Source: Acidobacteriaceae bacterium
Lineage (GTDB): Bacteria > Acidobacteriota > Terriglobia > Terriglobales > Acidobacteriaceae
Assembly (NCBI GenBank): GCA_903642265.1
Contig: CAHJWN010000012.1
Coordinates: 1 to 64,000 of the forward strand
Direction of reading: 5' to 3'
Length of the DNA stretch: 64,000 bases
Shown here in pieces: positions 8,296 through 18,296 of this stretch (the stretch's first letter is position 1; each line of letters begins with the position of its first letter). A program made the position numbers and the translations under genes. A model generated the notes under the pieces. That model was not told where the DNA came from. It made no database searches and was given only the letters and a program-made list of their open reading frames with translations.

Positions 8296-11200
8296 TTAGA
8301 ACTTGACCTTAAGAGAGACCTGGAACTGTCGCGCTGCACCGGCGAAGGTTGGGGAACCGAAGGTCGGATTGACAGGGCTGGTTACGCCATCGCCGTAATG
8401 CTTTGGAACGGCACCGCTGAATTCTCCAGCACCGTAGACCTGGTCTACATCCTGCACGTTGACGCGGTTCAAGACGTTCAACGCTTCGGCGCTGGCGTTC
8501 AGCTTGTAACGTTCGCTGAATGAGAAGAGGCGCTGCAGCCGGAGATCGCTGTTGTAGTACGGAGCACCCTGATAGGTGTTACGCCCGATGCTGCCAACGC
8601 GATCGTTGAAGGGGAAGCCGTCCCCGTTTATATCTGAGCCGGCAAGGATGCTGTAGGCCTGCGCGCTTTGAAAAGTATTAAGCATGGAGAACTGGAGACT
8701 GCGCAGAGGCTTTATCCAGGTTGCGGGTGACTCTGCGAGAGCCGTTAAGACGAGGCGATGGCGCACGTCGTTATCGCTAACTGATCGATCAAGCTGGGGC
8801 TGGAGGTAATCCTGGGGTTCATCCTGCAGTTGATTCTCCGTGGCTAGATCGATTGATTTTCCGTAGACATAGTTGGTCAGCAGGCTGAAGCGCTGACTGA
8901 ACTCCTTGCGGAGGGTGACAGAGCCGCCATGGTAGATGGACCACCCGGACGGCGTATCAAAGAGGACAAAGCCGAAGGCCGGATCAGCGGGGGTGAACTT
9001 CTGACGTCCGTCAGAGAGGAAGCCCGCTGGAAGTCCATTGATGGTGTTCGAGTTGTTGAGATGAAGAGCATGAACATAGTGATAGCCAAGAGTGAGAAAC
9101 CACTTCTTACCTAGCTCGTTTTCTATCTCCAGGTTTGCCTGTTCTGCGTAGCTGGAAGGAAATTTCCGTGAAGTGAAGCCCAAGGGGAACTGCTTCAGAA
9201 TGCCGGGCGCTGGATAGATGCCGTTGTGGGTGAAATTAGAGAATGCCGCACCGGCGAGGACAGGACCAGCGGTTCCAACCATACCTGCAGGACCGAAACC
9301 GACGAGGTCCCGAGACGGATTCGCGAACTGAGGTAACAGGGGTTGATTCATCGCGGTGAAGGGCGATGCTCCGTGCCAACCGTTGACCAGGCTGCTGTAT
9401 TCGAGCGAGCCGGTATAAAGGCCGAAGCTGGAGCGCAGAGCGCCCTTACCGTTGCGGAAGCCGTAGGCAAGACCAACACGCGGTTGAATGTTGCCGTAGT
9501 TCGTCGGATTTATGCGGCCAACGATCTTGAGATCGCTTGCCGAGGGAAGAAAGTCGACGTCGTAGCGCAAACCGGCGGAGAGAACGAGATTTCGTTTGAC
9601 CTTCCACTGATCCTGAACGTAGAGACCTGCGAGCTTGTGCCAGAAAGCGACCTGATCTGCTGCCTGGTGGGCGGGTCCATCCGGACCGTCGTAGAAACCG
9701 TCTTCGAAGGGTAGATTGCGTTGTGGGACTTGTTGTCCGAAGTCAGCCTTGGTCTGTTGAAAGAGGAACTCGACGGCGGTGCCCGGACCGAAAGTAGTGA
9801 AAGGTCCGGCACCGAAGAAGCTTTGCGGGCTGAAGATGCCAACACCAGGCGTGAAGTAGGGCGTTTGCGCGCTAAACCAGCCGGGTTCCAACTCTGCGCC
9901 AAACTTTAGGCTGTGGTTGCCCCGCGTGTAGGCTAGGGCCTCTTTGGCCTGAAAGTGATGCTCGCTGTAGTAATCGACTCCGCCTAAGAACCCGCCGCTG
10001 TAGAGGGTGTCGGCGACGTTGATAGCAGGCTCGAAGCCAGCACCAACGGGGTTCATGTAGAAGATGCGGCGACCGAAGTTCACTGAGCTTTCAGACGTCC
10101 AATGATCACTGAATATCTGAAAGAAATTTGCATAGGCAGTCTGATCGTGAACCCGGTTGTCGCGATAGCTAGAGGGTAGGCCTTGTCCGGGTGACGCGGC
10201 AGGCGTGTTGCCATTATGGACATTGGCAAAGAGGTAGCCGACAGATAACGTGCTGCGTTCATTCATAACCTCCGTGACCTTGCCGAAGGCGTTGTTGTAG
10301 TCATTGATTTGAAGGATAGAGCCGAGGTTCTCCGTCGAAAGGCCGAGACCCGTTTTGATTTGATTGATGCTTGGAGTGCCGGGCCCGAGGCAGCCTGCGG
10401 CGTCGATGCACTTTAGTATGAAGCGGGAATAAATCGGGGATTGGGCACGACGCTGGCCTTCGTAACCCAGGAAGAAAAAAGCTTTGTCCTTCCGCAGCGG
10501 CCCGCCGATGGTGGCGCCGAACTGGTTGAAGCGGAGCGTGTCGAAGCCAGGGGCCGAGAGGAGATTGGTGGCGTCTGCGGCGTTGTTACGGATGTATTCG
10601 TAAACCGAACCGTGCAGATCGTTTGTTCCGGATTTGGTTATGGTGTTGACGGCTGCACCCAGGCTGAGACCGGCGCCGGCCGCATCCGGACCGTCGACAA
10701 CACGAAACTCCTGAACCCAGTCGAGCGACGGGCTGACGCGTTGAACGCCGGAGACCATGGTGGTGTAATCCACTCCATCAAGGCCATAGAAGACGCTGTG
10801 CGTCTCACGCAGACCAGCAAAACTGACTTCGAGGACTGTCTCTTGAAAAGCCGATTGAGCGCCTGAACTCGAGTTGCGACCGACGGTTGCGGTTGGGGTA
10901 AGAAGAACGAAGTCGATGAAGTCGCGATCGGATATAGGAAGGTCCGAGATTTGTTTAGGCTCGATGACCTGGCTACCCTCGATTCGCTCTTTATCGACAC
11001 CCTGCACGATGTCGGAGACTTCAACCTGCTCGGTGTTGGTGCGGATGCGGAGAGATACCTGAAGGTCAGCAATTTGACCAAGGGTCAAGACCAGCGGGGC
11101 CTGGTACGAGGCAAATAATTCCGCGTCGACAGTGATGATGTACTGGCCAGCGGAGAGGCCGGGCATGGAGACCACTCCGTGCTGGTCTGAAGTTTCGTTG

Positions 11201-11442
11201 CGGATCACTCCGGTGTCGACGTTGCGGGTGGCGACCTTCGCCGAAGACACGACGCTTCCTTGTGGGTCAGCGACGGTGACCCTCAGGGTTGCGAACTGCT
11301 GTGCAGGAGCCGCTGCCAGGAAGACAAGCAAGGCAGCGCAGACTGAGAGAACCTTATGCGTAAATTCGCTGAGAAGGTGAGCACTTAGGAGCTTTGCAGA
11401 GCGGAGACGAAAGGCAGAGATGAAAGCAGACGGCAAGGTCAT
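8296..11442 (-). CDS. Oar-like TonB-dependent receptor
   Basis: A 1048-residue outer-membrane receptor. I chose the ATG at 11442 because AAAGGA lies about 7 bases upstream; an in-frame ATG at 11511 would add 23 residues that do not resemble a signal. The N-terminus has a long basic region before a hydrophobic signal segment ending AAAPAQQ, then a CarboxypepD_reg-like domain (TLRVTVADPQGSVVSSAKV), a plug-like region (SQVIEPKQISDLPISDRDF) and a barrel ending FQVSLKVKF with terminal Phe. It is transcribed in the same direction as the downstream receptor operon but separated by about 820 bp, so it is probably an independent unit. The ligand is unknown. No enzyme gene is directly linked. Confidence 0.9.
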   Translation of the reverse strand: MTLPSAFISAFRLRSAKLLSAHLLSEFTHKVLSVCAALLVFLAAAPAQQFATLRVTVADPQGSVVSSAKVATRNVDTGVIRNETSDQHGVVSMPGLSAGQYIITVDAELFASYQAPLVLTLGQIADLQVSLRIRTNTEQVEVSDIVQGVDKERIEGSQVIEPKQISDLPISDRDFIDFVLLTPTATVGRNSSSGAQSAFQETVLEVSFAGLRETHSVFYGLDGVDYTTMVSGVQRVSPSLDWVQEFRVVDGPDAAGAGLSLGAAVNTITKSGTNDLHGSVYEYIRNNAADATNLLSAPGFDTLRFNQFGATIGGPLRKDKAFFFLGYEGQRRAQSPIYSRFILKCIDAAGCLGPGTPSINQIKTGLGLSTENLGSILQINDYNNAFGKVTEVMNERSTLSVGYLFANVHNGNTPAASPGQGLPSSYRDNRVHDQTAYANFFQIFSDHWTSESSVNFGRRIFYMNPVGAGFEPAINVADTLYSGGFLGGVDYYSEHHFQAKEALAYTRGNHSLKFGAELEPGWFSAQTPYFTPGVGIFSPQSFFGAGPFTTFGPGTAVEFLFQQTKADFGQQVPQRNLPFEDGFYDGPDGPAHQAADQVAFWHKLAGLYVQDQWKVKRNLVLSAGLRYDVDFLPSASDLKIVGRINPTNYGNIQPRVGLAYGFRNGKGALRSSFGLYTGSLEYSSLVNGWHGASPFTAMNQPLLPQFANPSRDLVGFGPAGMVGTAGPVLAGAAFSNFTHNGIYPAPGILKQFPLGFTSRKFPSSYAEQANLEIENELGKKWFLTLGYHYVHALHLNNSNTINGLPAGFLSDGRQKFTPADPAFGFVLFDTPSGWSIYHGGSVTLRKEFSQRFSLLTNYVYGKSIDLATENQLQDEPQDYLQPQLDRSVSDNDVRHRLVLTALAESPATWIKPLRSLQFSMLNTFQSAQAYSILAGSDINGDGFPFNDRVGSIGRNTYQGAPYYNSDLRLQRLFSFSERYKLNASAEALNVLNRVNVQDVDQVYGAGEFSGAVPKHYGDGVTSPVNPTFGSPTFAGAARQFQVSLKVKF

Positions 11443-11769
11443 ACACGTTCCTTTGAATACTTGGATAAAGAAATTAGAGGTTACTTCGCAGGCCTGAAGT
11501 ATGCGGAACACCTACGTAAAGCGCCTCAGCCGATGGGATGATGTGAACTCCATCTGTCGATGGATACTTTAGGTTTGTAACGAACAGATTGTTCTCTAGC
11601 GCTATGAAGTGCTGTTGCACTAAATAACTGCGGCCGCTTCCACTAAGTTGTGGAAACGGCAAGATTAATAGTTAATTACCGGTCTATTCCTTTCGCGCTG
11701 AGAAGGAGATGTATCAGTGCTTAATAGATACGGCCGCAGAAAAGATGTGCTGTTTTCCGCAGCCTTTTG

Positions 11770-12324
11770 CTAACTCGCTGCAGACTCGCGATAGCCCTGC
11801 TTCGCGAGGTGTTTGCCCATCGCTTGATACATCTCTGGCTCACGAGGCTGGAAAGTGGCGAGACCATCAACGTAGCGGTTGTACATGCAGAAGGCAGCGG
11901 CAATCAGGACGGTGTCGTGGATCTCAAGCTCAGTTGCACCCTCGGTCCGGGCCGCTGCAATCTGGGCAGAACTGACGGACTTGGGATCACCCTGCACGTG
12001 TGCAGCGATGGCCAATAACGCTTTCAGCTTTTCCGAGATGTCGGCAGTCGCGGGGTTGGAGCAGACTGAGGCTACCAACTCCGGACTCCCACCGCTGTGA
12101 CTGGCGGCTGCGGCTCCGTGGCTGGTTTTGCAGAAGAAGCAATTGTTGCGCGTGGAGACGTAGCTTGCAATCAGTTCGCGATCGCGTGAGCTTAGACTCG
12201 CATCCGGGCCTGGTTCGAAGAGCAGGATATGAGCGAGGTCGCGCATAGGCTTTGCAGTCTCTGGGCGGAAAGCAAATGCTGACGCGATGCCGGGAAGGTG
12301 GTTTGGAAGATCGATGTGCGGCAT
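11770..12324 (-). CDS. AhpD-like carboxymuconolactone decarboxylase/peroxidase-related protein (copy 1)
   Basis: A 184-residue cytoplasmic protein of the AhpD/CMD superfamily, usually thiol-dependent peroxidases. The AhpD-type active-site pattern is intact: C62-x2-C65 with H69 four residues on and E50 twelve residues before the first Cys, the spacing seen in AhpD. The all-helical flanks (DRELIASYVSTRNNCFFC) fit. It is a paralogue of the gene immediately upstream: both begin MPHIDLPN and share the sequence ATDLEIHDTVLIAAAFCMYNRYVDGLATFQP with minor changes. The upstream stop and this start form TAACATG, a one-base gap, so translational coupling is likely. Context with an MFS transporter suggests detoxification. 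The physiological substrate is not visible. Confidence 0.85.
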   Translation of the reverse strand: MPHIDLPNHLPGIASAFAFRPETAKPMRDLAHILLFEPGPDASLSSRDRELIASYVSTRNNCFFCKTSHGAAAASHSGGSPELVASVCSNPATADISEKLKALLAIAAHVQGDPKSVSSAQIAAARTEGATELEIHDTVLIAAAFCMYNRYVDGLATFQPREPEMYQAMGKHLAKQGYRESAAS

Positions 12325-12325
12325 G

Positions 12326-12907
12326 TTATCGGCTCACCAGTTCCGCGGGTTGAGGTGCAGCGAAATTGGTTAGATTGGCTGCTACATAACCGTCTCGCGC
12401 GACCATTCTGCCGCGTTCGCGATAGAGCGCCGGATCCTGCGGTTGGAAGGTGGCGAGGCCATCGACGTAGCGGTTGTACATGCAGAATGCTGCCGCAATG
12501 AGGACGGTGTCATGAATCTCAAGGTCCGTTGCGCCTTGAGTGCGCGCGGCCTGAACATCTTCAGTAGTGACGTTCTTGCCGTCTTGCTGCACCTTGCCGG
12601 CGATGTTAAGAAGCGTCTTCATCTTGGGCGAGACAGATGCGGAGTGGAAGTCCTGCTTCACGTCGCTCACCAGATCTTCGTTGCCATCGAGATGGGCGGC
12701 TGCGATCGCGCCGTGTATAGATTGACAGTAGTGGCAGTCATTCTGTGATGAGACGTAGGTCGCGATGAGTTCGCGCTCGCCCTGAGTGAGTGAATTTGGG
12801 TGGCGTAATAACACTTCCACGAGTTCGTTCAGTGGCTTCGATGTCTCTGGACGGAATGCCATGGGGCCACGGATTCCGGGCAGGTTGGGCAGATCGATGT
12901 GGGGCAT
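12326..12907 (-). CDS. AhpD-like carboxymuconolactone decarboxylase/peroxidase-related protein (copy 2)
   Basis: A 193-residue AhpD/CMD-fold protein with the pattern E46...C58-x2-C61-x3-H65, the catalytic arrangement of AhpD-like peroxidases. A strong AAAGGAG ribosome binding site lies 5 bases before the ATG. It follows the MFS transporter gene by 35 bp and precedes its paralogue by one base, so the three form an operon. The two copies differ mainly around residues 30-45 and in the C-terminal tail, where this copy is longer. They may form a hetero-oligomer (AhpD proteins are trimers; the hetero-oligomer is inference). The start of this unit is divergent from a reductive-dehalogenase-like gene. 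Confidence 0.85.
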   Translation of the reverse strand: MPHIDLPNLPGIRGPMAFRPETSKPLNELVEVLLRHPNSLTQGERELIATYVSSQNDCHYCQSIHGAIAAAHLDGNEDLVSDVKQDFHSASVSPKMKTLLNIAGKVQQDGKNVTTEDVQAARTQGATDLEIHDTVLIAAAFCMYNRYVDGLATFQPQDPALYRERGRMVARDGYVAANLTNFAAPQPAELVSR

Positions 12908-12942
12908 GATGTCTCCTTTGGGTGGATGGATCGGAAGAGCTT

Positions 12943-14199
12943 CTAAAGGGATGCTGCTGCATTAAGCAGAATCGTGTCGGGTGCTGGTGAAGTTGTTGGA
13001 TAGCGCGGTAGTAGAAATTGAAGTAATGCCGCGGCAAAGAGAGGCACCGAGAGCAGAAGGACGGTGGAGGCGAGATACGCTCCAGTGTGGTCAAATGCGC
13101 GTCCCATAAGCACCGGACCAGCGGCAGCTCCTACTGCGTAGGCGGTCCAACTAAGACCGTACAGTGTTGAAAATCGAGTTTTGCCAAAGTACTTTGCGAT
13201 GAGGTAAGGCACGACGTCCGCTTCGCTTCCAGCGCCGAAGCCGATGAGAGATGCGGCCAGGATTCCCATCGCAGCTGACGTTGCATAGGCCAGGGTGACA
13301 ATGCCCATGCCCGCGATCAGAAGGACGGCTAGCGAGACTAAGGGTGCAAAGATGCGGTCTAGGAGATGGCCAGTGATGAGCCGACCGACGATGCCCGATA
13401 AGCCGAGCATGGACAGAGCGAGCGCGGCAGTGGCTGGCGTCACAGAACGTCCAACGAGAAGGGCCGCAAGATGCGCAATGGCACCATTGAGGCCAAACGC
13501 GGACAGTAGCACGGGCATCGCAATCAACCAGAAAGCACTTGTCTTCAGTACCCCGACAACGCCGATTTGTTCTTGGGTGACAGGGGGCAGGATTTCAGCG
13601 ATGGGATTGTTGCGAACCAAGAGAGCCGTAAGGGGGAGACCGAGTAAAGCGATCGCTCCGAGAACCACATATGCGCTACGCCAGCCTTGTGTGGCGATGA
13701 CATGCTGGGCTAGCAATGGCAGGAGGATAGAGCCGGTTCCACTGCCTGCAAGTACCAGGGCAAGAGCCAGGCCGCGACGCCGGTCGAACCATGTAAGGAC
13801 GGCGCGCGAGTAGGCCAGCTGGGCTGTCCCGTTTCCAACGATGCCGAGCAACATATAGGTGGCATAGAAGTGAATGATGTTTCCCTTGAGGAAGGCGAGA
13901 GACGCGACGGCGAAGGCAAAGATAACGATGCACGGCAGGATGATCCGGCGTGGCGGCAGGCGATCCAGGAGTGTGCCGAGAAACGGAGAGCACGCCGCAA
14001 CCGTGAGCGCGGCGATGGCAAAGCCACGGGAGATTGCTTCGCGTTTCCATCCGAAAGCAAGTTGTAATGGAGAGAGAAAAAGGCTGAAGGTGTACGGCAC
14101 AATGGCTGCAAAGCTGACCATGACACCAACGAACGCGGCTGCGGTGACATGCCAGCCGGTGTAACTTGAAGAGCTCTCGTTCGGTTTGTCGATGGGCAT
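12943..14199 (-). CDS. Major facilitator superfamily transporter
   Basis: A 418-residue inner-membrane protein with about 12 predicted hydrophobic helices in two halves. It has an MFS loop 2-3 motif (GTLLDRLPPRR, about 75-86), a half-repeat equivalent (GHLLDRIFAP) and the helix 4-5 segment LALALVLAGSGTGSILLP, as seen in monocarboxylate/oxalate-formate-type exchangers. It is the first gene of a minus-strand unit with two AhpD-like proteins. The substrate cannot be predicted; the neighbourhood (thiol peroxidases, and a divergent iron-sulfur cobalamin-type reductase) suggests an organic acid or aromatic compound. There is no strong Shine-Dalgarno before the chosen ATG, so the start is moderately uncertain. 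Confidence 0.85.
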   Translation of the reverse strand: MPIDKPNESSSSYTGWHVTAAAFVGVMVSFAAIVPYTFSLFLSPLQLAFGWKREAISRGFAIAALTVAACSPFLGTLLDRLPPRRIILPCIVIFAFAVASLAFLKGNIIHFYATYMLLGIVGNGTAQLAYSRAVLTWFDRRRGLALALVLAGSGTGSILLPLLAQHVIATQGWRSAYVVLGAIALLGLPLTALLVRNNPIAEILPPVTQEQIGVVGVLKTSAFWLIAMPVLLSAFGLNGAIAHLAALLVGRSVTPATAALALSMLGLSGIVGRLITGHLLDRIFAPLVSLAVLLIAGMGIVTLAYATSAAMGILAASLIGFGAGSEADVVPYLIAKYFGKTRFSTLYGLSWTAYAVGAAAGPVLMGRAFDHTGAYLASTVLLLSVPLFAAALLQFLLPRYPTTSPAPDTILLNAAASL

Positions 14200-14538
14200 G
14201 TGTATTGATCACAGAGGGAAAGCGTGCAGGACAGAAGTGTCTATCACTCGATCGTCAAAACGGGGAAAACCTGCTGTTAGTGACAGGGCGATCGTACGTG
14301 GTGCATCGAGGATTGCACTCGGAACAAGTGTTGGTTTTGATCTCATGCTTTTGATGGAGCTGTGGCTTACACCCCGCTATTGATATTCGGTTTTGTTGAA
14401 TAAAACATTGGGAGCACACCTCTCGAGCACGATACGAGATAGTAGACGGACACCTATCCACCTTTAGGACGATGCGGGCCCCGTAGCTCCCGCTTAAGAT
14501 GAGGCTCACTTCTTCAATCCCCATTTGAGGTCTCGTCC
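14200..14538. other. Divergent promoter region between the MFS unit and the reductive-dehalogenase-like gene
   Basis: About 340 bases separate two divergent start codons, so both promoters must lie here. The only structured element I see is the short inverted repeat at 14421-14439, described separately. No small gene or RNA is supported. Confidence 0.5.
14421..14439. promoter_or_regulatory. Candidate operator, inverted repeat TCTCG-N9-CGAGA
   Basis: Two perfect 5-bp arms separated by 9 bp, about 100 bp upstream of the iron-sulfur protein gene and within the divergent promoter region. The size would suit a dimeric repressor. No regulator gene is adjacent, and arms this short can occur by chance. 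Confidence 0.25.
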
Positions 14539-15585
14539 ATGCCAGATCTAATCAATCCACGCCGCCCAAAACGAGGCACCTACATTCCCAAGCCTGAAAC
14601 CCTGGCACTCCTGCGGGTTTCTGGCAATTTGATCAACGGGCTCGGCGAGCAGCAGCCCCGCAGGCCATCGCCCTTCTTCTGGCACTCGCCGGACCTTCAT
14701 CCATACGGCGATTTACAGATGGTTGCGCGCCAGAGTTCACGTGCTTGTCCTGAATCTGAGCCAGCCTTCATGGCCGCTTACAGTTACCCGGAACTTGTTC
14801 CCGTTGCCGACACTCGCATAGCCGCTTCTGCCGAGTCATTTTCAGCTGAGATGACCACCTTCGCGATGGCTCATGAAGCAGATGCGGTTGGCATCACAGC
14901 AATGGATCCCCTGTATGTCTTTGAAGGCCACTTGATCGATGAGCCCTGGGTAATCGTCCTTGCGCTTGCGCACAACTATGAGCGTTTGAAGGAGGTCCCA
15001 TCCGACGAGACGAACGGGATCGGAGTGGTGGACATTGGCGACCAGTATGCGAAGGGCACGCGATCTTCTTACGCAATTTCCAACTGGATACGCTCGCAGG
15101 GATACACCGCAAACCCCTACCCAGGGCCATCGGCAAGCGCGCTGGTCCTTATACCGCCGGCGATTGCTGCCGGACTCGGGGAACTCGGCAAGCACGGCTC
15201 CATGATCAGTCCGCAGTTTGGATCAGGTGTGCGCCTGGCGGGTGTGACCACGAACATGCCGCTGGTTGCGACGAATCCAGTTCGCTTCGGCGCGGATGAT
15301 TTTTGTTCTACCTGCCAGGTGTGTACCCGTGCATGCCCGCCCGAGGCGATCACCGAGAAGAAGCAAATAGTGCGCGGTGTCGAGCGGTGGTATGTTGACT
15401 TCGACAAATGCATTCCTTACTTTGCGGAGACTGCTTCCTGCGGGATCTGCATTGCGGAATGTCCATGGACACGTCCGGATGTGCGGCCCAAATTGCTTGC
15501 GACTATGGCTCGCAGAATGAACGAAGAAGCCAAACGAAATGATGTTTCTACATCTGAAGGCCGACTCCGGCTCAGTCCAGTTTAG
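14539..15585 (+). CDS. Reductive-dehalogenase-like (RdhA/QueG-related) 4Fe-4S protein, no Tat signal
   Basis: A 348-residue protein related to the cobalamin-dependent reductases RdhA and QueG. Two C-terminal [4Fe-4S] sites are visible: C256-x2-C259-x2-C262-x3-C266-P, and C291...C301-x2-C304-x3-C308-P. Just upstream is the family's conserved AAGLGELGKHGSMISPQFGSGVRL segment (about 210-233), cobalamin-proximal in known structures. There is no Tat leader, so it should be cytoplasmic, as in catabolic rather than respiratory dehalogenases; no RdhB-type anchor gene is present. At 348 residues it is shorter than most RdhA (about 450-500, or about 700 when fused to a reductase). A GAGG lies 8 bases before the ATG. 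The next gene encodes a flavin/[2Fe-2S] reductase that could supply electrons. Dehalogenation is inferred, not shown; another cobalamin-dependent reduction is possible. Confidence 0.72.
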   Translation: MPDLINPRRPKRGTYIPKPETLALLRVSGNLINGLGEQQPRRPSPFFWHSPDLHPYGDLQMVARQSSRACPESEPAFMAAYSYPELVPVADTRIAASAESFSAEMTTFAMAHEADAVGITAMDPLYVFEGHLIDEPWVIVLALAHNYERLKEVPSDETNGIGVVDIGDQYAKGTRSSYAISNWIRSQGYTANPYPGPSASALVLIPPAIAAGLGELGKHGSMISPQFGSGVRLAGVTTNMPLVATNPVRFGADDFCSTCQVCTRACPPEAITEKKQIVRGVERWYVDFDKCIPYFAETASCGICIAECPWTRPDVRPKLLATMARRMNEEAKRNDVSTSEGRLRLSPV

Positions 15586-15805
15586 AGGGCGGTTGGGCGA
15601 TGGAGCGTAGCTCAGTCTGCGCCCGCCGCCAGGTCTTGAGATTTTCAGAGCGCGCGGACAAAGCGTCCTTAGTTGCCGCTTTGAGAGAACCGTTATTTCA
15701 TTCAGCACAGGGGCTATGTACTTACACGATGCGGGATACTCATGGAAATACATAGCTGCCAACCTGGTGGGTGCAGCGTATGTTTGAGAGCTAGAGGTTC
15801 TCAGG

Positions 15806-17557
15806 ATGGGATCGCTCGTCTCAGTAAACGTGGGGCTTCCACGCGATATAACGTGGGAAGGCAAAGTTGTCCGAACGGCCGTCTGGAAGCGATCCGTCAT
15901 GGGTCGCGTCACTGCTCGACGGGTGAACCTGGATGGAGACGGGCAAGGAGACCTCGCTGGTCATGGGGGTGAGCACCGCGCTGTGATGGTCTACCAAGTT
16001 GACTCCTACCGATACTGGGAAGAGTACCTGCAGCGGACCGACTTCGAACATGGACAGTTCGGCGAGAATTTCACTGTTGATGGTTTGGCTGATGTTGAAG
16101 TCTGCATCGGAGATCGCTACCGCATTGGAACAGCCCTGTTTGAAGTGACGCAGCCACGGGTAACTTGCTATCGGGTAGGGATCAGGATGAATAATCCGCA
16201 GATGCCTGCCTTGCTCGTCTCGCACCAGAGACCGGGTTTTTACTTCCGTGTCCTTGAGGAAGGAGAGGTCGGCGCAGGAGACGAGATTGTCAAGGTTGCC
16301 GATGGACCGGAGCGGGTCACAATAGCCAAGATCGATGCTCTGCTCTACCTTCCTGGTCATCCCCGAGACCAGTTGGAGGCTGCAGTGCGAATCCCAGCTT
16401 TGAGCGAGGGGTGGAAGGGATCGTTGAGAGCTTTGCTGGCAGCCGGAGGTGAGCAGGGGAACGCTGGTCTTGCGAGCAGAACCCAAGCTACAGCCTGGAA
16501 CGGCTTCCGGCCGCTATGTATTGCAGAGGTGCAGCGAGAGAGTGATCATGTGCTCTCGTTTGTATTGGAAGCAGAAGATCACAGCCCATTACCGGTTCCG
16601 CTTGCCGGCCAGTTCCTTGTCTTCAACATTCGGGTTGGGGGAGATGCTGTTCCGATCGTGAGGAGCTACTCAATGTCCGGCCCCCCAGAAGCTGGTACCT
16701 ACCGTGTCAGCGTGAAACGGGAGGGTGGGCCGGGGAGTCAATACTTTCATGACAGGCTTCGGGTTGGTGACTCGCTGCAGGTAAGCGCTCCGCGTGGGAG
16801 TTTCACACTTGAGGCGAGCGAACTGCCAGTCGTTTTGCTCAGCGCAGGAATCGGAGTTACACCGGTGCTCGCCATGCTGCATAAGCTGACTGATGCTGCC
16901 GATGGCTCAGCACCGGAGATTTGGTGGTGCCATGGTGCTCACAATGGCAGGGAGCACGCTTTCGCTCGAGAAGTCCAGGAGTTGCTCAAGAGGGCCAGCC
17001 ACGGCCACTCATTTGTTGTATACAGTGAGCCTGAAGACAGTGACCGTGCGGGTGTCGATTACGATGCAGTCGGTCATCTGACGCTCTCGCATCTGCAGGC
17101 GCTCGGCGTGCCTCGAAGAGCACACTTCTATCTTTGTGGACCAGCCGCATTCCTTGCTGATCTTTCTGCGGCTCTGAAGGAATGGAATGTCCCGGACTCT
17201 TACATTCACTCCGAGACCTTCGGTTCAGCCCCCTCGATAACGCCGGGCATTCGTGAAGTTACATCGAGATCCCCCCACGCGCCTTCGGCCGAAGCCGGCG
17301 CAGGTCCAGCGGTGACCTTCGCACGCAGCGGATTGACTGCTCCCTGGAACTCCCGCTACGGGAGCTTGCTGGCATTTGCAGAAGCATGCGATGTTCCAGT
17401 CAGATGGTCCTGCCGGGTTGGTGTCTGTCATACCTGCGAAACTGGAGTGATCGGTGGCGAGGCAAAGTATCAACCGCAGCCCCTCGAGCGGCCAGTAAGC
17501 GGAAGGGTTTTACTTTGCTGTGCAATCCCGATGTCGGCGATGCAGCTGGACCTCTGA
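15806..17557 (+). CDS. MOSC domain - ferredoxin reductase - [2Fe-2S] ferredoxin fusion protein
   Basis: A 583-residue cytoplasmic three-part protein. Residues about 1-165 form a YiiM-like MOSC domain with the conserved Cys C121 (RVTCYRVG). About 170-225 is the short helical extension that follows MOSC in YiiM. About 245-480 is an FNR-type flavin/NAD(P)H domain (RSYSMSG flavin motif; LLSAGIGVTPVLAML nucleotide motif; YLCGPAAFL). About 505-583 is a plant-type ferredoxin with C536-x4-C541-x2-C544 and C572. The reductase half resembles phthalate dioxygenase reductase. MOSC proteins are linked to molybdenum-cofactor sulfur chemistry and reduction of N-hydroxylated compounds. It lies 220 bp after the RdhA-like gene, same strand, and could be its electron donor (inference). 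Start supported by GAGG 8 bases upstream. Confidence 0.88.
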   Translation: MGSLVSVNVGLPRDITWEGKVVRTAVWKRSVMGRVTARRVNLDGDGQGDLAGHGGEHRAVMVYQVDSYRYWEEYLQRTDFEHGQFGENFTVDGLADVEVCIGDRYRIGTALFEVTQPRVTCYRVGIRMNNPQMPALLVSHQRPGFYFRVLEEGEVGAGDEIVKVADGPERVTIAKIDALLYLPGHPRDQLEAAVRIPALSEGWKGSLRALLAAGGEQGNAGLASRTQATAWNGFRPLCIAEVQRESDHVLSFVLEAEDHSPLPVPLAGQFLVFNIRVGGDAVPIVRSYSMSGPPEAGTYRVSVKREGGPGSQYFHDRLRVGDSLQVSAPRGSFTLEASELPVVLLSAGIGVTPVLAMLHKLTDAADGSAPEIWWCHGAHNGREHAFAREVQELLKRASHGHSFVVYSEPEDSDRAGVDYDAVGHLTLSHLQALGVPRRAHFYLCGPAAFLADLSAALKEWNVPDSYIHSETFGSAPSITPGIREVTSRSPHAPSAEAGAGPAVTFARSGLTAPWNSRYGSLLAFAEACDVPVRWSCRVGVCHTCETGVIGGEAKYQPQPLERPVSGRVLLCCAIPMSAMQLDL

Positions 17558-17576
17558 CACCGGGCAACGCGACGGC

Positions 17577-18062
17577 TCAGAGTCCGAGAGCGCTTAGTCC
17601 CGGATGATCATCGGGTCGTCTGCCCAGGGGCCAGTGGAACTTTCGCTCGGCTTCCGTGATGGCCAATTCATTGATGCTGGCGTGGCGTGTCGACATTAAG
17701 CCCTGTTCGTTAAACTCCCAGTTCTCGTTCCCGTAAGCCCGAAACCAGTTGCCTGAATCGTCGCGATACTCGTAGGCAAAGCGCACGGCGATCCGGTTTT
17801 CACGAAAGCACCAGAGCTCCTTGATCAGACGATATTCCATCTCCCGCTTCCACTTTCGAGAAAGCAGCGCAACGATCTGGTCTGTTCCGACGGCGAACTC
17901 GGCACGATTTCGCCAGCGCGACTCCGCCGAGTAGGCCAGCGAGATGCGCGCCGGGTCACGTGTGTTCCAGCCATCTTCCGCCATACGAACCTTCTGTATC
18001 GCGGTCTCTTCTGTGAATGGTGGAAAGGGTGGTCGAGGTGTCATGGGTAATTGAAATGTCAT
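17577..18062 (-). CDS. DUF1348/NTF2-like family protein
   Basis: A 161-residue cytoplasmic protein of the NTF2-like fold, DUF1348 type, recognisable from [20 protein letters not shown], the central SRWRNR segment and the C-terminal [10 protein letters not shown]. The function of the family is not known; the SnoaL/NTF2 fold is used by isomerases and hydrolases and as a small-molecule binding cone. I chose the ATG at 18062 because AAAGGA precedes it by 6 bases; an in-frame ATG at 18134 would add 24 unrelated residues. It converges on the MOSC-reductase gene with only 19 bp between stop codons. Confidence 0.85.
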
Positions 18063-18296
18063 CGGTGGTCCTTTCTTGTACGAGCTGGCCTTATCGATGC
18101 TCCTGTGTGCAACGTCTGTCAGTGAGGGCTCCATGCTGACCGTCGTGTGCTGCCGCCGGAGATGGTGCCACCGCTATACTCAGCGGCGATACCTATCAGG
18201 CTCCATGGCTCTGAGTCAGGACATAAGGTTCACAGGATTGTTGTTTGGCCTGCAGGGGATTGTAGGCTGGAAGTGAGAGCTTAGAATCTGATTCCC

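Follow-up and report, generated by a model that had tools for sequence, protein, structure and literature searches.

A minimal Tat-less RdhA-like enzyme and its linked transport and AhpD-family genes in Acidobacteriaceae

Introduction

A 64,000-nucleotide stretch of an Acidobacteriaceae genome, probably that of a soil bacterium (assembly GCA_903642265.1, contig CAHJWN010000012.1; hereafter the window) encodes a 348-residue protein (14539..15585, plus strand) that resembles the reductive dehalogenase (RDase) RdhA. What does so small an enzyme reduce? And which of the genes around it take part?

Published RdhAs have been sorted into four domain architectures: one respiratory, one transmembrane and two of large cytosolic enzymes whose domain is duplicated, one of these including a reductase and the other lacking it (PMC10463259; this and the other papers are cited for the sections quoted). 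In those sections the duplicate in the cytosolic, 'catabolic' RdhAs is described as a vestigial copy of the cobalamin domain, and the reductase, where present, as fused. NpRdhA of Nitratireductor, BhbA of Comamonas and JtRdhA of Jhaorihella have no twin-arginine translocation (Tat) signal, adopt the class III fold and run to ~700-1100 residues. A Tat-less RDase from a marine Roseobacter, Ros_A3X954, debrominates 2,6-dibromophenol, and its relative from Pararhodobacter, A0A2T7UTL8, is active on triiodophenol (PMC13101508, sections cited).

The original prediction for this locus held that an NpRdhA-like enzyme has here been divided between two plus-strand genes, the RdhA-like gene and a downstream fusion gene to which a MOSC domain has been added, and that this could be an oxygen-tolerant, cobalamin-dependent system for reducing halogenated or N-oxygenated compounds. 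Here we report an analysis of the protein, its fold and its relatives' neighbourhoods. The observations behind that prediction were right; its central inference is not borne out. The protein belongs to a compact RdhA-side clade whose genes lie, in acidobacterial relatives, near those of a transporter, AhpD-like proteins and an outer-membrane protein (OMP), and the MOSC fusion looks like a chance neighbour. With moderate confidence we propose that the protein is a minimal, cytosolic, single-unit RdhA-type enzyme that uses cobalamin to reduce an imported, probably halogenated aromatic compound.

Results

Family and fold

Class III B12 enzymes with two [4Fe-4S] clusters include a subfamily that curated models leave unnamed, and the 348-residue protein is one of its members. 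It scores 112.2 bits (4.5e-32) against TIGR02486, the model for reductive dehalogenase RdhA (curated cut-off 160.35), and 43.9 bits against the QueG model TIGR00276 (cut-off 200). TIGR02486 matches all 34 sampled family members at 1e-5; the best E-value is 4e-35, and 112 bits correspond to 4.5e-32, so all of them should stay under the cut-off. Among solved structures the protein's sequence matches PceA at 3.4e-27, NpRdhA at 1.2e-26 and QueG at 1e-5. A profile built from A1, an alignment of 34 family sequences with the window protein included, finds NpRdhA first (2.9e-45), then PceA (1.4e-40) and QueG (2.3e-10).

AlphaFold2, run with A1, gave a model with a predicted local distance difference test (pLDDT) score of 91.0 and a predicted template modelling (pTM) score of 0.89. 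In a Foldseek search of the PDB its best matches are PceA (8.7e-17) and NpRdhA (TM-score, normalised by query length, of up to 0.69); QueG comes next at 3.4e-7 and reaches at most 0.41 on the same TM measure. An RdhA fold is thus found, on a predicted model and with a large root-mean-square deviation (rmsd).

In a tree of 56 rows, all 34 family rows (a different set from the 34 of A1) lie on one side of a branch with support 95/93. The remaining rows are three QueG, three BhbA-type, two respiratory and 14 other acidobacterial RdhA-like sequences, the last drawn from 24 such loci and cut to the matching part. The family rows are separate from every one of these groups, and the BhbA-type rows form a group of their own at 100/100. 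Long-branch warnings were raised for QueG_own, resp_Dehalococcoides and rdh_L106 (L, G and C numbers denote our loci, genomes and contigs), so the branching order among the RdhA groups is not firm.

Could the protein be a second QueG-like tRNA epoxyqueuosine reductase? The class III fold and redox chain are common to both, as is a single conserved tyrosine, and there is the 43.9-bit match; yet that match is far under the cut-off, and the protein lies outside the QueG rows; a place inside them would have told against the original prediction. Its own genome encodes a true QueG elsewhere (300 bits against TIGR00276), none of the 34 A1 rows has an Asp at the position of QueG Asp130, and the family carries the RdhA-type Arg described below. 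It is also patchy in the phylum: 5 of 297 genomes, its own included, have a family-level match at E<=1e-100. Score, tree, fold, residues and the separate genomic QueG lead us to reject this identity as scarcely credible.

By record titles, relatives occur in Acidobacteria, Betaproteobacteria, Sphingomonadales, Defluviicoccus, Rhodobacteraceae, Gammaproteobacteria and Acidimicrobiales; none of the titles and abstracts among the literature matches listed describes the subfamily. One metagenome-assembled genome of Kordiimonas (L071, 2717-9008) has five tandem copies of the gene. Copies that look broken or truncated (L057/L086 on contig C1 of G163, L089 on contig C37 of G103, and L058) suggest repeated loss in the Acidobacteriaceae. 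Short open frames of 331-337 residues were seen in L091, L092 and L094 (genomes G041, G253 and G277); L091 and L094 form a clade of their own in the tree, and G041 and G253 have seven RdhA-like matches each.

Active-site and cluster residues

Tyr170, present in 34/34 A1 rows, faces Tyr246 of PceA and Tyr426 of NpRdhA. Arg232 (33/34) faces Arg305 of PceA and Lys488 of NpRdhA; the exception, L059, has an insertion in this stretch. PceA and NpRdhA residue numbers were counted from printed pairwise alignments. In the sections cited from PMC4646009 the Tyr246-Arg305 motif of PceA is linked to proton transfer, and QueG is said to lack a counterpart of Arg305. By alignment, then, the catalytic tyrosine and its basic partner are both in place, and the enzyme retains the proton-transfer pair of a dehalogenase. 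The cluster cysteines are equally constant: C256, C259, C266, C291, C301, C304 and C308 occur in 34/34 rows and C262 in 33/34, giving two [4Fe-4S] motifs at residues 256-267 and 301-309. Tree, fold and active-site residues support a place on the RdhA side and not with QueG.

Two further positions have changed. Where PceA has Asn272 and QueG Asp130, A1 has Gly in 25 rows, a gap in seven, Ser in one and Asn in one (n=34). Arg552 of NpRdhA, among the key residues in the sections cited from PMC10463259, faces Phe295, which is kept in 33/34 rows. Because of these changes the substrate or the chemistry may differ from those of NpRdhA. They are also an argument for the main rival explanation, in which the protein, though a class III B12 enzyme on the RdhA branch, is no dehalogenase and instead reductively cleaves another bond (an epoxide, aryl ether or activated C-O bond) of an imported natural product. 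The family's own clade fits such a role, and so does the statement, in the cited part of PMC4646009, that class-wide sharing is limited to the redox chain and one Tyr and that more uncharacterised families may exist. Against it, the RdhA Tyr/Arg pair is kept and the characterised RdhA-side enzymes in the cited sections of PMC13101508 and PMC10463259 are dehalogenases. We consider other-bond cleavage the less probable chemistry but a serious contender.

A minimal cytosolic architecture

No Tat signal was found from the frame limits and a Kyte-Doolittle scan, no signal-peptide predictor having been run. The open frame (360 residues) extends only 12 codons upstream of the start, the Arg-Arg pair at residues 8-9 has no hydrophobic stretch after it, and Kyte-Doolittle means over 17 residues peak at 0.69 within the first 60 residues. 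NpRdhA matches the 314-position family profile twice; the 348-residue protein has room for one unit. It carries neither the vestigial duplicate of the cobalamin-binding domain nor a fused phthalate dioxygenase reductase (PDR), and no MOSC/FLDR homologue lies near the gene in 80 relatives. Since it is 348 residues long, Tat-less, unduplicated and unfused, we call it a minimal variant and keep it out of the catabolic RdhA group.

How does it compare with characterised enzymes? It has the fold, the two-cluster cysteine pattern and the Tyr/Arg pair of respiratory RdhAs such as PceA, but is Tat-less, scores below the TIGR02486 cut-off, has mostly Gly at the Asn272 position and belongs to a family in which PF13486 matches one member of 34. 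With NpRdhA, BhbA and JtRdhA it has in common the class III fold and the absence of a Tat signal, and with NpRdhA the catalytic Tyr and a basic residue; it differs from them in size and in lying outside the BhbA-type clade, and has Phe295 where NpRdhA has Arg552. The closest published parallel in shape is Ros_A3X954, also Tat-less, with [4Fe-4S] motifs at 283-294 and 337-345 by its published description (PMC13101508, cited section). These positions are similar enough that Ros_A3X954 is probably also a short single-unit enzyme. Unlike 33 of the 34 family members here, Ros_A3X954 matches PF13486, and the two motif strings quoted for it are absent from all 91 family proteins searched; the likeness is one of published description and not of full sequence. 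As Ros_A3X954 is already published, the small size of the window's enzyme is not unique. The new points are the clade, the gene set and the acidobacterial setting.

Layout of the locus

The genes of the region are as follows.

8296..11511, minus: outer-membrane beta-barrel protein with an N-terminal CarboxypepD_reg domain, 1071 residues (PF25183, 295.8 bits; PF13620)
11770..12324, minus: AhpD-like / carboxymuconolactone decarboxylase (CMD) peroxidase-related protein 1, 184 residues, motif CFFCKTSH (PF02627 and TIGR01926 above cut-off)
12326..12907, minus: AhpD-like / CMD peroxidase-related protein 2, 193 residues, motif CHYCQSIH (PF02627 and TIGR01926 above cut-off)
12943..14199, minus: major facilitator superfamily (MFS) transporter, 418 residues (PF07690, MFS_1; NF049980, 170 bits against a cut-off of 320)
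14200..14538, no strand: divergent intergenic region, presumed regulatory (pairwise alignment with L004)
14539..15585, plus: minimal RdhA-like class III cobalamin / two-[4Fe-4S] enzyme, 348 residues (TIGR02486, AlphaFold2/Foldseek, tree, A1)
15806..17557, plus: MOSC/YiiM-flavin reductase-[2Fe-2S] fusion, 583 residues, outside the module (Pfam/NCBIfam)
17577..18134, minus: DUF1348 (SnoaL-like) gene, outside the module (PF07080)

The original prediction had described five of these genes, whose coordinates match open reading frames exactly, as two divergent units, and the region 14200-14538 does separate the two. Its transporter and two thiol-peroxidase-like proteins proved to be an MFS_1 member and two AhpD/CMD proteins, each with a single CxxCxxxH motif; the Tat-less protein with two 4Fe-4S sites and the domains of the MOSC-flavin reductase-[2Fe-2S] fusion were likewise confirmed. 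The outer-membrane barrel gene had been overlooked. The best NCBIfam models for the transporter, lactate and oxalate/formate MFS, both fall below cut-off. The module as we draw it consists of the outer-membrane barrel, the AhpD-like proteins, the MFS transporter and the RdhA-like enzyme. The barrel is a probable outer-membrane uptake component.

The intergenic region contains GGTTTTGATCTCATGCTTT.GATGGAGCT, common to the window and L004 (Granulicella aggregans) in a two-sequence alignment. Within the stretch conserved between these two sequences lie two TTTTGAT words 14 bp apart, the second of which reads TTTCGAT in L004; the pair is a possible operator. An RNA element or tRNA at the boundary was considered and dropped: the window has no Rfam match at the gathering cut-off, and ARAGORN gave no gene. 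The genes of 8296..18134 have a G+C content of 0.56-0.58, against 0.56 at 20-60 kb, so composition in this comparison gives no indication of foreign DNA.

Neighbours of the RdhA-like gene in relatives

The neighbourhood was examined in 80 loci, the best 80 of 85 from one pattern-seeded scan and not a random sample. Some come from the same genome (L005/L006, L016/L023, L017/L032, L022/L058 and L039/L042), and record titles may be wrong, as for L037 and L043. We chose 41 loci as 'acid-type' (L003-L037, L040, L041, L044, L050, L057 and L058). Neighbour counts come from tblastn; gene order comes from a longest-ORF heuristic, which missed the RdhA-like gene in L036, L039, L048 and L052, so that these four appear in the counts but not in the gene-order listings.

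Within 5 kb of the RdhA-like gene, homologues of the window's OMP, AhpD and MFS genes occur in 29, 27 and 25 of the 41 acid-type loci, and in 23, 22 and 21 of the 31 that have at least 11 kb of DNA. The strongest neighbourhood evidence is the linkage to the MFS gene. Five genomes chosen for the RdhA-like gene have exactly one MFS homologue each at E<=1e-40, always on the RdhA contig and within ~4.8 kb of the RdhA-like gene. OMP homologues are common, with three further matches within the window, so some of the 29 loci may owe their OMP neighbour to chance; the outer-membrane barrel region has 78.6% nucleotide identity with L004. Linkage of the RdhA-like gene to MFS, AhpD and outer-membrane genes is a conserved feature of the acidobacterial relatives.

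In the 39 loci with a called gene, 4-bp overlaps join AhpD to RdhA in six and RdhA to MFS in seven, subject to the longest-ORF gene calls. Are the AhpD-like proteins themselves the dehalogenases, with the RdhA-like protein acting on another step? Bmp8, a CMD homologue, carries out reductive debromination, for which cysteine oxidation has been proposed (PMC7918430 and PMC5577590, sections cited), and PF02627, the CMD family, is also the one that the linked AhpD-like proteins match; the resemblance is at family level, by published description and not by sequence comparison. The overlaps in six loci would fit a thiol mechanism of this kind. However, AhpD/CMD proteins are common, and the nearest solved relatives of these two are putative antioxidant or peroxidase-related proteins. 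We judge it improbable that they are the dehalogenases.

Outside the acid-type loci other genes appear. In Sphingomonas (L047) a TonB receptor precedes the RdhA-like gene and an MFS gene follows it, its best match being MhpT (303 bits, below cut-off); in L070, DUF1302/DUF1329 proteins lie between two RdhA-like copies. The genes at these two loci differ from those of the window, but their outer-membrane or transport theme is similar.

A flavin-halogenase-like gene, recognised by the motif WxWxIP, which we take to mark halogenases, lies within ~8 kb in seven of the 80 loci (L003, L005, L008, L014, L022, L025 and L058), in five of them with an alpha/beta hydrolase gene as well. PF04820 is above cut-off in the three loci scanned, L003, L005 and L008. 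The best NCBIfam model is QhpG, below cut-off, and the gene is absent from the window's own genome and four of the five others; for these reasons we did not use it as evidence.

Two further neighbourhoods may be recorded. A sulfatase-family gene occurs in the Acidimicrobiales loci L073, L075, L077, L079, L080 and L081 (representative L080:8948-10519, PF00884, 161 bits). On a Jannaschia plasmid (L114, 2768-8618) a 3210-bp RdhA gene lies near glutathione S-transferase and pyridoxamine-phosphate-oxidase-family genes.

The MOSC fusion

The 583-residue product of 15806..17557 comprises MOSC (115.0 bits), YiiM 3-alpha (46.3 bits), FAD_6, NAD_1 and Fer2 domains, the MOSC and YiiM 3-alpha domains above cut-off as in a YiiM-type MOSC reductase. 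Is it the reductase half of a split, self-sufficient catabolic RdhA? In this one genome the two genes lie on one strand 220 bp apart, and the flavin-NAD-Fer2 part matches phthalate dioxygenase reductase, a module of the kind that BhbA-type RdhAs carry as a fusion, at 6.3e-17 (2pia). The same part is nearer to flavohaemoprotein reductase (4.2e-40) and already has a MOSC domain of its own fused to it.

The linkage evidence decides against a partnership. In none of the 80 loci does the available DNA around the RdhA-like gene contain a MOSC or reductase homologue; the conserved neighbourhood that the original prediction expected of the two plus-strand genes is thus missing, and it is to the MFS, AhpD and OMP genes that linkage in relatives extends. 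Conversely, 11 MOSC control loci (not random loci) contain no RdhA, AhpD, MFS or OMP homologue at 1e-10. In G163 and G103, the other two genomes found with both genes, the two lie on different contigs, and the RdhA-like copy of G103 is in pieces. The RdhA-like gene occurs without the fusion in G094, G139 and G171; in G233 and others the fusion is accompanied by no more than a weak match, RdhA-like or at QueG level. The syntenic blocks break between the two genes: nucleotide similarity to Granulicella aggregans L004 covers 8300-15519 in three main pieces and ends where the RdhA-like gene ends, and similarity to contig C2 of G163 covers 15819-18045, spanning the fusion and DUF1348. A DUF1348 homologue stands beside the MOSC gene in one of the 11 MOSC loci examined (L139, in G163).

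The fusion is also a widespread, named type. It occurs at E<=1e-60 in 17 of 151 genomes of the class, and 68 plasmid records cover at least 80% of it, with ~59% identity in the Rhizobium records listed; most of the listed records name it 'MOSC and FAD-binding oxidoreductase domain-containing protein'. The absent linkage, the separate contigs, the synteny break and this wide occurrence lead us to reject it as the RdhA reductase and to regard a split RdhA as very improbable. The earlier reading of this gene is corrected accordingly, and since the fusion is unlinked to the RdhA-like gene, the claim of N-oxygenated substrates falls with it for the RdhA module.

What does the fusion do? E. coli YiiM is reported to reduce N-hydroxylated bases (PMC3831636, section cited). 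The MOSC and YiiM 3-alpha domains are common to both; solved YiiM chains have 221-246 residues, and the fusion adds its own flavin-[2Fe-2S] reductase, which probably makes it self-sufficient. It is probably a molybdenum cofactor-dependent N-hydroxyl reductase of the YiiM kind.

Discussion

How might the RdhA-like enzyme of this locus work? The substrate would enter from outside through the outer-membrane barrel and then the MFS transporter. In the cytosol, base-off cobalamin would be held in the RdhA-like fold beside the two [4Fe-4S] clusters at the C-terminal end. A ferredoxin or flavodoxin, acting as an external donor of low potential, would reduce the clusters and these in turn Co(II) to Co(I). 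The reduced cobalamin would remove a leaving group, most likely a halogen on an aromatic ring, as Tyr170, helped by Arg232, donates a proton. An AhpD-family CxxC protein may act in the same or the next step, as a thiol reductant or in removing peroxide or radicals. Of the possible chemistries dehalogenation is the most probable, since the RdhA tyrosine and its basic partner are kept and a short Tat-less RDase is known to debrominate; a thiol-redox role for AhpD is suggested by the AhpD-RdhA gene overlap together with Bmp8.

Several observations weigh against a minimal RdhA-type dehalogenase served by these neighbours. The protein does not reach the TIGR02486 cut-off, PF13486 finds one of 34 family members, and no characterised member of the family was found in the literature searched. 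The Foldseek rmsd is large, 9.5-14.9 Å for RdhAs and 6.6-8.3 Å for QueG, so the RdhA match is one of parts and not a tight overall fit. The changes facing PceA Asn272 and NpRdhA Arg552 tell in the same direction. Between 12 and 16 of the 41 acid-type loci lack each of OMP, AhpD and MFS within 5 kb, and in the 39 other loci homologues of all three are missing within 8 kb. Pairs of AhpD genes also exist at a distance from the RdhA-like gene, as on contig C5 of G139, and some proteobacterial copies have housekeeping neighbours such as aspartokinase (L045) and LpxK (L061); outside Acidobacteria the annotated part of the neighbours, a chosen one, has no single catabolic theme in common. No recurring ferredoxin or reductase was seen among the neighbours examined, no systematic search having been aimed at them. 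CobS was not found in the window's own draft genome or in G171. The window's own genome does have a cobalamin riboswitch (L156, contig C42 of G000), upstream of a frame that by eye looks like class I ribonucleotide reductase, and the organism therefore probably uses B12 all the same.

A bolder version of the proposed dehalogenase would have the Tat-less subfamily dehalogenate natural organohalides in the cytosol of hosts that are presumably aerobic, by record titles Acidobacteria, Sphingomonads, Betaproteobacteria, marine Rhodobacteraceae and Acidimicrobiales, with an AhpD-family thiol protein as obligate partner, either an electron relay or a second-step dehalogenase. We think this doubtful. 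If true, it would unite cobalamin-based and thiol-based dehalogenation in one operon.

The more modest proposal, that the window's gene encodes a minimal dehalogenase, is important because it concerns a compact subfamily, of Tat-less proteins of 320-360 residues, that sits under the TIGR02486 cut-off and is mostly missed by PF13486. If it is right, these enzymes would be small, soluble targets, and their presence in soil and marine bacteria would widen the range of settings in which cobalamin-dependent dehalogenation may occur.

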